48,662 nucleotides of DNA, taken from Verrucomicrobiota bacterium (GTDB lineage: Bacteria > Verrucomicrobiota > Verrucomicrobiia > Chthoniobacterales > JAFAMB01). Below are positions 10,761-48,662 of this stretch, piece after piece. The stretch spans positions 1 to 48,662 of the forward strand of contig JAFBAP010000081.1 of NCBI GenBank assembly GCA_019247695.1, in the 5' to 3' direction. The translations under genes were made by a program, and so were the position numbers. Every line of letters starts with the position of its first letter. The first letter of the stretch is position 1. Below the pieces are notes generated by a model. The model searched no databases and was not told where the DNA came from. It saw only the letters and a list, made by a program, of their open reading frames with translations.

Positions 10761-10802
10761 GGCCCCCTTAAGTGACATCAAAAGCACCACCCTGCAATCG
10801 CC

Positions 10803-10895
10803 GGTCACACGGTCACACGGCGGGCACAGCGGGTTTGGCGGGCACGACGTAAGAGTTCACACGGCGAACACGGAGGGCCACGGCGACCACGGCGG
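10803..10895 (+). repeat. Intergenic repeat module A (CACGGCG units)
   Basis: A run of 9-11-bp units built on CACGGCG or CACACGG (as in CACGGCGAC). It is near-identical to copies at 15927-16012 and 33151-33287, to the window end, and inverted at 11080-11162. It is followed by a purine-rich GAAAGAGGGGG tract and GTTCGGAGTTCGG heptamers. Confidence 0.85.
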
Positions 10896-11008
10896 AAAGA
10901 GGGGGAAAGCGTTCGGAGTTCGGGGTTCGGAGCGACAGAGAATGCCACAAATGAGGAGAAGTGCCGGGTGCCGGGTAAGAGAGACGCTATATCCGCCGTG
11001 TGCCCTCT

Positions 11009-11071
11009 AATCTGTGTCAATCTGTGTAATCTGTGGATGTTTTCTCTTTTCTGCGTGTTCTGCGGATGATT
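11009..11071 (+). repeat. Intergenic repeat module B, copy 1
   Basis: Three TCTGTG units followed by a T/C-rich tract and TCTGCG units, ending CTGCGGATGATT. Compared with copy 2 it lacks one TCTGCGTTCT unit, which suggests slippage. A GTGCCGG heptamer pair lies just upstream (10961-10977). Confidence 0.85.
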
Positions 11072-11079
11072 TATCTTCT

Positions 11080-11162
11080 CACTGTGGTCGCCGTGGCCCG
11101 CCGTGTTCGCCGTGTGAACTCTTACGTTGTGCCCGCCACACCCGCTGCGGCTGCCGTGTGCC
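11080..11162 (-). repeat. Intergenic repeat module A, inverted copy
   Basis: Reverse complement of module A (CCGTGTTCGCCGTGTGAAC and flanks), lying between the two B copies. It is the only inverted A copy in the window. Confidence 0.85.
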
Positions 11163-11166
11163 CCCT

Positions 11167-11239
11167 AATCTGTGTCAATCTGTGTAATCTGTGGATGTTT
11201 TCTCTTTTCTGCGTTCTTCTGCGTGTTCTGCGGATGATT
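11167..11239 (+). repeat. Intergenic repeat module B, copy 2
   Basis: Same sequence as copy 1, 158 bp further on, with the extra TCTGCG unit. Together with the short GCCGTGTGCC lead-in, this makes a long imperfect direct duplication. Confidence 0.85.
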
Positions 11240-11268
11240 GGGGGAGATCGGACGTGGTTCTACGACCC

Positions 11269-11339
11269 CTCCGAACTCCGAACTCCGAACTCTTTCTGCT
11301 GTGCCCGCCACCCGTTACGCGTTATCCGTTACCCGCAAC
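11269..11339 (-). repeat. Heptamer arrays (CTCCGAA x3, then CCGTTAC-type x4)
   Basis: CTCCGAA is repeated three times at 11269-11289. CCGTTAC, GCGTTAT, CCGTTAC and CCGCAAC follow in 7-bp phase at 11312-11339. The second motif is the complement of the AACGGGT array at 33085. The arrays end 14 bp before the ribE ATG. No FMN-riboswitch core is visible here. Confidence 0.8.
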
Positions 11340-14785: not shown

Positions 14786-15913
14786 ATGACCGCGCTCAGC
14801 AAGGGACTTGAAGGCGTCATCGCCAATGAGACCCGGATCGGGGACGTCAGGGGACAGGAAGGCCAACTCATTTACTCCGGTTACGACATCAATGAACTGG
14901 CCGGAAAAGTCTCTTTCGAAGAGGTTGTTTACCTGCTGTGGAACAACCGGCTGCCGAACCGTGCTGAGCTCCGGTCGCTTAAAGAACAGCTTGCGTCTGA
15001 GCGGCAGCTTCCCGAGCAGGTCATTGCTTTCATCAAAGGAGCGCCGAAGGCTGCCGCGCCCATCGATGTATTGCGGACGGCGGTCTCGATGCTTGGTTTG
15101 CACGACTCGGCCGTGGCCACGGACAACAGCCCCGAGGCGAACCGGCATCGTGCGGCCAGCCTGGTGGCCAAGAGCGGGGTGATCATCGCCTACTTTCACC
15201 GGGCCCGGAACGGCCTGGAACTCCCCCCGGTACGCCAGGACCTGAACGAAGCCGGCCATTTCCTTTACCTTCTGGACGGTAACGAACCTTCGAAGCAGAA
15301 AACCAAAACCCTCGACGTGGCCTTTGTGCTGCACGCCGAGCACGGTATGAACGCTTCCACCTTCAGCGCGCGGGTGACCATTTCCACCCTGACCGACATC
15401 TATTCGGCCGTAACGGCGGCGATCGCGACGTTGAAAGGACCGCTCCACGGGGGGGCCAATGAAGGCGTCATCCATATGCTCCAGGAGATCGACACGCCGG
15501 ACCGGGTGGACGCCTACATCGAGAAAGCGTTGGTTGAGAAAAAAAAGATCATGGGCATCGGCCATCGCGTTTACAAGGTGCTCGATCCCCGGGCGCCGCA
15601 CCTGCGGAACATGGCGGTGGAACTCAGCCAGGAGCTGGGTGAACCGAAATGGATCGAGATGTCGGAACGGATTGCGGCCTTGATGAAGGAGAAAAAGGGG
15701 CTGTACGCAAACGTCGATTTCTATTCGGCGACCGTCTACTACTCCCTCGGCATCCCGACGGACTTGTTCACCCCGATTTTTGCCATCTCCCGCATGGCCG
15801 GTTGGACTGCCCACGTGTTGGAGCAATTGGCGGACAACCGTCTTTACCGGCCCCTGAGCCAATACACCGGTGAACCGCCCGGCCGCACGTTCGTGCCGAT
15901 CGAGGAACGGTAG
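14786..15913 (+). CDS. gltA: Citrate synthase (short type)
   Basis: Condenses oxaloacetate and acetyl-CoA; 375 residues, the short form seen in CitZ-like and 2-methylcitrate synthase-like enzymes. The catalytic triad is visible as H221 (GPLHGGANEG), H260 (GIGHRVYK) and D311 (NVDFYSATVYY). FTPIFAISRMAGWTAHVLEQ is the CoA/arginine segment near the C-terminus. An AAGGA site overlapping the sucD end lies 9 nt before the ATG, so it is translated in the sucCD operon. A 2-methylcitrate synthase role cannot be excluded from sequence alone, but the sucCD context favours the TCA cycle. The stop codon runs straight into heptamer repeats. Confidence 0.95.
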   Translation: MTALSKGLEGVIANETRIGDVRGQEGQLIYSGYDINELAGKVSFEEVVYLLWNNRLPNRAELRSLKEQLASERQLPEQVIAFIKGAPKAAAPIDVLRTAVSMLGLHDSAVATDNSPEANRHRAASLVAKSGVIIAYFHRARNGLELPPVRQDLNEAGHFLYLLDGNEPSKQKTKTLDVAFVLHAEHGMNASTFSARVTISTLTDIYSAVTAAIATLKGPLHGGANEGVIHMLQEIDTPDRVDAYIEKALVEKKKIMGIGHRVYKVLDPRAPHLRNMAVELSQELGEPKWIEMSERIAALMKEKKGLYANVDFYSATVYYSLGIPTDLFTPIFAISRMAGWTAHVLEQLADNRLYRPLSQYTGEPPGRTFVPIEER

Positions 15914-16012
15914 GAGTTCGGGGTTCGGTCACACGGCGGGCACAGCGGGTTGGGCGGGCACAACGTGGGAGTTCACACGGCGAACACGGCGGGCCACGGC
16001 GACCACGGCGGG
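15913..16012 (+). repeat. GGAGTTC heptamers plus repeat module A after gltA
   Basis: The TAG stop of gltA overlaps GGAGTTC-GGGGTTC (15913-15926), then module A runs 15927-16012, nearly identical to 10803-10895. A GAAGAGGGAGAAGG tract and further GTTCGGAGTTCGGAG follow to about 16048. Confidence 0.85.
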
Positions 16013-16103
16013 AAGAGGGAGAAGGGGAAAGCGTTCGGAGTTCGGAGCGGCAGGATGGGGGTCGGTGCGAGTGTCAACCTTAGAGTTGCCGCCAAGTCCT
16101 CTT

Positions 16104-16176
16104 AATCTGTGTCAATCTGTGTAATCTGTGGATGTTTTCTCTTTTCTGCGCTCTTCTGCGTGTTCTGCGGATGATT
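16104..16176 (+). repeat. Intergenic repeat module B, copy 3
   Basis: Near-identical to 11167-11239, including the TCTGTG triple and the TCTGCG triple. It lies between the convergent gltA and glf stops, with the same order (A, then B) as at 33.1-33.4 kb. Confidence 0.85.
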
Positions 16177-16226
16177 CCGTCTTCCCGCCGTGTTCCGCCG
16201 AAAGATTGGCTCCAGTTATAGGACGT

Positions 16227-16272
16227 CTCCGAGCTCCGAACTCCGAACGCCGAACTCCGAACTCCGAACTCC
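16227..16272 (-). repeat. Heptamer array (CTCCGAA x6) abutting the glf stop
   Basis: Six in-phase 7-bp units (CTCCGAG, CTCCGAA, CTCCGAA, CGCCGAA, CTCCGAA, CTCCGAA). The G-rich strand reads away from the glf stop codon, as at the other gene ends. Confidence 0.85.
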
Positions 16273-33084: not shown

Positions 33085-33133
33085 AACGGGTAACGGGTAA
33101 CGGGTAACGAGTAACGGGTAACGAGTAACGGGT
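33085..33133 (+). repeat. Heptamer array (AACGGGT x7) after the GT2 stop
   Basis: Seven contiguous 7-bp units, five AACGGGT and two AACGAGT, beginning 5 bp after the stop codon. The motif is the complement of the array at 11312-11332, upstream of ribE. Confidence 0.9.
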
Positions 33134-33150
33134 AACCAATAGCGGGTGTC

Positions 33151-48515: not shown

Positions 48516-48662
48516 ATGGTTCGGGGCGCCACTCCCAAGGAGGAGAAGATCCGGAAGCCGGAGCTGAAGGCTCGCGTAGCGCATTGCAGGAAGAGCCTTA
48601 GCAGCAAAGGGCCGGGCCGTCAAATAGTTCGGTCACACGGTCACACGGCGGGCACGGCGGGC
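48516..48662 (+). CDS. Possible gene start, cut by the window edge
   Basis: An ATG preceded by AGAAGGAGAGA opens a frame that stays open to the window end: MVRGATPKEEKIRKPELKAR, then more lysine- and arginine-rich sequence. The last 13 or so codons run into repeat module A, so translated sequence there is unreliable. The N-terminus suggests a small basic protein; no family recognised. The strong ribosome-binding site is the main support. Confidence 0.35.
   Translation, partial: MVRGATPKEEKIRKPELKARVAHCRKSLSSKGPGRQIVRSHGHTAGTAG
48627..48662 (+). repeat. Repeat module A, copy cut by the window end
   Basis: GTTCGG followed by GGTCACACGGTCACACGG and CACGGCGGGC, the same as the start of module A at 10803. 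Confidence 0.8.

Follow-up and report, generated by a model that had tools for sequence, protein, structure and literature searches.

The repeat between gltA and glf

The DNA analysed here, hereafter the window, is a stretch of 48,662 nucleotides (contig JAFBAP010000081.1, C81 in our numbering) of a Verrucomicrobiota bacterium whose genome, G000, comprises 5.19 Mb in 191 contigs. The convergent genes gltA, coding for citrate synthase, and glf are separated by repetitive DNA at 15913-16272, and these coordinates, taken from the original prediction, hold on re-reading of the sequence. The gltA stop codon TAG occupies 15911-15913, and its final G is the first base of a GGAGTTC heptamer. The 360 bp had been described as composed of three repeat types. 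The heptamers, module A and module B were confirmed, but a reversed remnant of module A and two unique loops had been overlooked, the second loop lying, in left-to-right reading, between this remnant and the CTCCGAA units. The features of this copy, and of the other copies in the window, are the following:

15913..15928, + strand: left heptamer arm GGAGTTCGGGGTTCGG, beginning at the last base of the gltA stop and assigned from its sequence and left-heptamer polarity
15929..16012 (about), + strand: left arm of module A, CACACGGCG-type units, the word type that also flanks the GxxExxY gene of contig C29
16033..16047, + strand: inner left heptamers GTTCGGAGTTCGGAG, the second GTTCGGA pair
16048..16102, + strand: loop 1, unique sequence present in at least 53 copies within a 1.19-Mb sample of the genome
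16103..16176, + strand: right-type arm of module B, ATCTGTG x3 followed by TTCTGCG x3, the words that also flank the GxxExxY gene of contig C25
about 16178..16200, - strand: remnant of the right A arm (CTTCCCGCCGTGTTCCGCC), short and reversed
16227..16272, - strand: right heptamer arm, 6.6 x CTCCGAA, terminating on the glf stop
10802..11335, no strand assigned: third copy, a compound of order A> H> B> A< B> H< (H, heptamer) plus (ACCCGTT)n, between the divergent trxB and ribE
33085..33147, + strand: left arm of AACGGGT heptamers, a word that also forms the arms around the four-helix-bundle gene of contig C147
33150..33420, + strand: second A-H-B copy, between convergent glycosyltransferase genes
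48630..48662, + strand: module A, truncated by the contig end

The gltA-glf copy possesses arms but no open reading frame or gene, its right A arm is mostly deleted, and its folding is weaker (z = -3.0) than that of full copies. The word types of the arms are unequal within the element, with A on the left and B on the right, and plain base pairing does not explain this mismatch. The predicted recurrence of the A-B order at 33.08-33.42 kb was verified, and the order is also found at 10.80-11.34 kb in a more complex form, flanked by the divergent trxB and ribE. Another heptamer word of like kind, GGGTGTC, is present at 1604-1628, right behind the stop codon of a Sel1-repeat gene. A search of the window with the Rfam models returned no family at the repeats and no rRNA, the copy at 15913-16272 being intergenic and outside 23S rRNA. 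The matches obtained were one tRNA and an Acido-Lenti-1 RNA (RF01687; 27492-27535, + strand, score above the gathering cut-off), both elsewhere.

Abundance and polarity of the copies in the genome

With regard to the whole genome, 437 candidate places were found for the 360 bp, and the number of copies is put at roughly 400; as the window contig ends inside module A, this copy number is if anything underestimated. A 1.19-Mb sample of G000 contains 95 clusters of copies, about 80 per Mb, which account for 2.1% of the DNA. The module words occur 4-12 times in the window, compared with 0-0.5 expected from dinucleotide shuffles, and an unbiased unit-array detector found 248 arrays in the 1.19 Mb and 3 in the same DNA reversed. 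These counts lie far above chance and bear out the claim that the arrangement is too ordered for random drift.

The copies are inverted arrays, in which CAC-type units (module A and reversed module B) and G-rich heptamers stand on the left and their reverse complements on the right. A module-level scan of 833 kb yielded 177 A>..A< pairs and no A<..A> pair, 40 H>..H< pairs and none in the reverse order, and 8 pairs of module B in inverted order against 0. At the level of arrays, 60 neighbours are left-right and none right-left. Module B sits inside the A arms, in either orientation. The fixed order that had been proposed is better captured by inward-facing inverted arms, with heptamers and A outside and B inside, than by A followed by B: module B can point either way, and the gltA-glf copy has lost most of its right A arm.

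A block of about 270 bp, including the unique loop, is common to at least 53 copies in the 1.19 Mb, several of which show 71-94% identity, and has thus been dispersed within the genome. Three copies are near full length (about 430-470 bp), and natural full copies have stems of about 100 bp, with folding z-scores of -14.5 and -13.5. The identity between arms within a copy (0.879, compared with 0.869 after permutation, p = 0.055) gave no significant sign of homogenisation by hairpin correction. In addition, the same 1.19 Mb contain 114 heptanucleotide tandem arrays, chiefly of AACTCCG and AACGGGT, which are intergenic and can be classified as STRR heptamers.

Comparison with a second genome of the genus

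The search extended to a single congeneric genome, G001. Its gltA-glf space also contains an element (folding z = -9.0), with a different arm sequence, and its trxB-ribE space contains an ATCTGTG x3 array only. About twelve syntenic sites were inspected, of which about 8 are occupied in both genomes with differing contents and about 4 in one genome only. The positions are therefore partly old while their contents turn over, and many sites are old and remodelled rather than the result of fresh insertion. No target-site duplication was seen at the inspected sites of the two genomes. In syntenic spaces on C148 of G000 and on C175 and C181 of G001, a further word (ATGCCACAA / TTGTGGCAT) forms left and right arrays around other elements, likewise with CAC on the left and GTG on the right.

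Inverted word arrays in other bacteria

A pattern of three ATCTGTG units has matches in more than 15 phyla among the matches listed, including Chloroflexota, Bacteroidota, Cyanobacteriota, Spirochaetota, Planctomycetota, Acidobacteriota, Verrucomicrobiota, NC10, Nitrospinae, Cloacimonadota and several proteobacterial groups. A typical array reads CCACAGAT-NN-ACACAGAT-NN-ACACAGAT, followed by a loop and the reverse complement. The polarity is the same across phyla, with 32 left-right and 2 right-left neighbours. When 263 CACAGAT x3 arms were taken one-sided, the partner was found on the inner side for 74 and on the outer side for 4. Between partner arms, the core is 93% identical and the linker 59%, and linker lengths match in 43 of 44 comparisons (65% expected). 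The elements of one genome have the unit in common and not the loop, so that the dispersal of one fixed sequence across phyla was rejected. Among 195 Verrucomicrobiota genomes, 91 have such arrays.

CACAGAT arrays with the same polarity (23 left-right, 2 right-left) are also present in IMG/VR (loci L278-L397), on contigs binned as viral, among them several records of 57-62 kb with neighbouring identifiers. Transport by phages was nevertheless rejected as an explanation: no GxxExxY protein was found among annotated phages, and the arrays in IMG/VR contigs may be host DNA.

GxxExxY genes between the arms

At the syntenic site on C29 of G000 and C135 of G001, an open reading frame, which is decayed in G001, occupies the loop and encodes a GxxExxY protein (132 bits with TIGR04256 and 130 bits with PF13366). 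G000 has a GxxExxY gene with module-A arms on C29 and another with module-B arms on C25. In the loci found through their arrays, every GxxExxY match has a left array on one side and a right array on the other, those of Herpetosiphon (Chloroflexota) and of an NC10 bacterium among them.

We then considered 90 GxxExxY loci chosen by the TIGR04256 model alone, all best-scoring matches from one phylum. A comparison of the 110 bp upstream of the gene with the reverse-complemented 110 bp downstream gave a median score of 30, as against 14 for other genes in the loci and 14 for mismatched GxxExxY flanks. With slightly wider windows, 61 of the 90 loci reached an arm score of at least 30; the corresponding figures were 0 of 53 for neighbouring genes and 2.9% for mismatched upstream/downstream pairs. 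The arm words are in the expected order in 51 loci and reversed in 6. The words themselves differ from locus to locus (CACAGAG, CACGGAG, CGCAAAG, CACGAA, CGCCAAG, ACAGGAT and others), while the two arms within a locus agree. In L437, L440 and L436, the end of the left arm (..CACAGAGG) is within a few bases of the start codon, and the arm may provide the site for ribosome binding; in L437, the reading frame extends into the right arm.

Arrays and GxxExxY genes also co-occur at the level of genomes: of the 195 Verrucomicrobiota genomes, 84 have both, 7 arrays only, 20 the gene only and 84 neither (odds ratio 50). This association is weaker at the family level (p = 0.0065), and, as Y1 transposases are also weakly associated with arrays, genome size may contribute to it. 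The 7 array genomes with no detected GxxExxY gene have few arrays, and the 20 genomes with the gene only are devoid of this particular word.

Eight plasmid GxxExxY loci, all outside Verrucomicrobiota, were inspected. Judged by score, the inverted arms are strong in three of them and weaker in two; in two others (on plasmids of Fusobacteria and Prevotella nigrescens) the gene lies between long direct repeats instead of inverted arms, and one has no clear arms. A single filled/empty pair was obtained, with fabD-GxxExxY-fabG in Sphingomonas parapaucimobilis and fabD-fabG in S. paeninsulae; no target-site duplication was identified in this pair.

The GxxExxY residues G22, G24, E27, Y30, D67, E77 and K79 are invariant. 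The fold is predicted with confidence (mean pLDDT 95.9), but its matches to lambda-exonuclease and Cas4-like proteins are weak, with E-values of 0.0075 or worse, and a sequence search returned no solved structure. The predicted model is that of a small conserved PD-(D/E)XK nuclease-like protein, and a structure-cutting nuclease is a reasonable guess for this putative enzyme. Just two open-access papers mention the family, and they do not address its function.

Four-helix-bundle genes between heptamer arms

Among the other small genes in the loci, one had strong inverted flanks: a gene for a four-helix-bundle/S23 protein (TIGR02436) in L090, with CGGGAAA/TTTCCCG arms. Such a gene lies between heptamer arms in 8 of 8 loci, namely six plasmid loci, L090 and C147 of G000. 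In each of the plasmid loci (Cyanobacteriota and Gemmatimonadota), inverted arrays of short tandem words stand on both sides of the gene; most of the words are 7-mers, for example GGGTGTA/TACACCC and AGGGAAC/GTTCCCT. On C147, about 16 GGGTAAC units extend upstream of the gene to the contig end and GTTACCC units follow downstream, which is the word of the arrays at 33085-33147 and 11310-11335 in the window. The word GTTCGGA was not seen around the gene in the eight TIGR02436 loci, so that the GTTCGGA heptamers of the gltA-glf copy can be attributed to the four-helix-bundle type by analogy. The protein at L530:386-751 has a weak match, below the cut-off, to Avd of diversity-generating retroelements (1.9e-6), which hints at an RNA route for this class. 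L530, on plasmid pANA02 of Anabaena sp. 90, has GGTGACA/TGTCACC arms and lies between the cas6 and cas4 genes of a CRISPR locus.

Taken together, a cassette consists of one small gene flanked by inward-facing inverted arrays, in which a word of 6-8 bp recurs every 7-11 bp. Words of the CRCRGA, CGCAAAG, CACGAA and ACAGGAT types surround GxxExxY, whereas those around the four-helix-bundle/S23 protein are 7-mers rich in G or A. We found no published description of these cassettes in open-access full text, and no relevant open-access paper on the repeat words.

Genomic context and alternative explanations

The repeat had been described as lying between convergent genes. This location is not specific, since in G000 copies are found in 13.7% of the convergent spaces, 9.9% of the tandem ones (gap of at least 60 bp) and 9.3% of the divergent ones (p = 0.21 and 0.28), and the trxB-ribE copy is divergent. 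Occupancy being similar in all orientations, a dedicated role in bidirectional transcription termination is unlikely. A broader possibility is that the inverted arrays are hairpins useful to the host, serving as bidirectional terminators or stabilisers of mRNA 3' ends under selection, with the small genes as passengers. The long stems would suit such hairpins, as would two further observations: in tandem spaces, copies are closer to the upstream stop (median 21 bp) than to the next start (112 bp; p = 0.005), and copies across phyla are scarcer in divergent spaces (14%, compared with 26-27%). Nevertheless, divergent spaces are filled as often as tandem ones in G000, related species fill the same site with different contents, and inspection of the sequence behind the gltA-glf copy reveals no T-run, so that it does not qualify as an intrinsic terminator. 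Moreover, two specific gene families are found inside the hairpins, where a terminator predicts none. We therefore regard selection for host hairpins as unlikely.

Far less probable is purely mutational growth, in which slippage and template switching would build inverted arrays from short words in the absence of any element. Tandem words, variable unit numbers and drifting linkers are what such growth would produce, but it would not be expected to bracket two gene families, to yield a core so much better matched than the linker between arms, or to generate a block of about 270 bp, part unique sequence and part repeat, that is common to at least 53 copies. Nor do polarity and words vary randomly between lineages: the polarity is near-absolute, and the same words recur in more than 15 phyla among the matches listed.

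REPIN/RAYT systems comprise dispersed inverted pairs of short repeats, and the copies, as dispersed intergenic palindromes, could be elements of the REP/BIME type, mobilised by a RAYT (Y1) transposase. G000 has two Y1_Tnp genes, and across genomes Y1 genes show a weak association with arrays (odds ratio 6.7; p = 0.06 at the family level). However, the RAYT genes do not track the arrays: neither Y1 locus of G000 contains the modules or is bracketed by arrays, four genomes (G187, G151, G101 and G179) have 38, 11, 11 and 10 arrays and no detected Y1 gene, some genomes with at least 15 Y1 matches have one array or none, and GxxExxY tracks arrays far better. A RAYT/REP identity is thus largely refuted, and we give it marginally less credence than mutational growth. 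An assembly artefact or collapse in the metagenome bin is very improbable, for, although contigs do end in repeats (the window contig in module A), the same architecture is found at syntenic sites in G001, as well as on complete replicons of cultured bacteria.

Relation to known elements

The nearest known system to the cassettes is the intervening sequence (IVS) of 23S rRNA, for example in Coxiella burnetii, a selfish element of about 430 nt whose complementary ends form a long stem; its S23p ORF belongs to the four-helix-bundle type, and RNase III removes the element from the RNA (PMC4990558). Complementary ends around an S23/four-helix-bundle ORF are likewise found in the heptamer-type cassettes, and not in the gene-less gltA-glf copy. 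In contrast to the elements described here, which are intergenic and made of word arrays, the IVS lies inside 23S rRNA, its stems are not described as word arrays, and our second class carries GxxExxY instead of the S23p ORF. The heptameric STRRs of Nostoc and Xanthomonas have been described as simple repeats that in general show no association with mobile elements (PMC4692102). Both they and the heptamers of this study are intergenic tandem G-rich 7-mers, but ours form paired inverted arms and flank TIGR02436 genes.

The copies resemble MITEs in being short, non-coding, dispersed palindromes with terminal inverted repeats and an apparent gene-bearing parent. They differ in that the apparent parents have a GxxExxY or TIGR02436 gene and no DDE transposase, no target-site duplication was found at the sites inspected, and the arms are arrays of a word that changes from one element to another. 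BOX elements of Streptococcus pneumoniae are modular and intergenic, with a fixed module order and a variable unit number; our copies share this build and differ in sequence, and we know of no GxxExxY or S23-type parent of BOX elements.

Proposed origin of the copies

We estimate at about 0.7 the probability that 15913-16272 is a non-coding, partly deleted copy of a dispersed palindromic element built of the arms of small-gene cassettes. Modules A and B, judged by their words, are best read as the arms of the two GxxExxY cassettes of G000. As the gene on C29 has A arms and that on C25 has B arms, the gltA-glf compound combines A, B and heptamer arms, and, having arms and no gene, it would be a derivative of a GxxExxY cassette. 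We take it as a gene-less derivative that is itself dispersed. The suggestion that the repeats are mobile non-coding elements thus gains support, and we infer that they have moved; no transposition event or precise element boundary was demonstrated in the loci compared.

The cassettes are probably selfish, by analogy with the 23S rRNA IVS. In the proposed mechanism, a copy of a cassette or of a gene-less derivative would enter an intergenic space, in most cases immediately after a stop codon, and its arms would fold the transcript into a long hairpin, which may be cut out, in the way RNase III treats 23S rRNA intervening sequences, or tolerated. A transcript folded and processed in this way could make insertion behind a stop codon tolerable, at low cost to the host. 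Copying might be driven by the cassette protein, acting as a nuclease or as a helper binding RNA or a reverse transcriptase.

On balance, we lean towards a more general proposal, held less firmly than the reading of the gltA-glf copy, namely a pan-bacterial superfamily of minimal selfish cassettes, in which inverted arrays of a freely changing word surround at least two unrelated small proteins (the GxxExxY nuclease and the four-helix-bundle/S23 protein), and whose gene-less derivatives make up many dispersed intergenic short repeats, including heptameric STRRs and CTCTGTG/ATCTGTG repeats. If this is true, TIGR04256 and TIGR02436, which are abundant and little studied, would be united with heptameric tandem repeats and CTCTGTG-type repeats in one testable system, many uncultured lineages would have a named selfish element, odd small genes inside operons would be explained, and 23S rRNA intervening sequences would have a possible parent. 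A word that is free to change while the two arms agree would imply either structure recognition or word-specific proteins, and both would be unusual. The cassette architecture may also account for some puzzling intergenic repeats of bacterial genomes. As a separate observation, a published primer upstream of BF2782 of Bacteroides fragilis contains AACTCTGTGTTCTCTGTGGTG (PMC3090145), which looks like one of these arms and was not recognised there as such.
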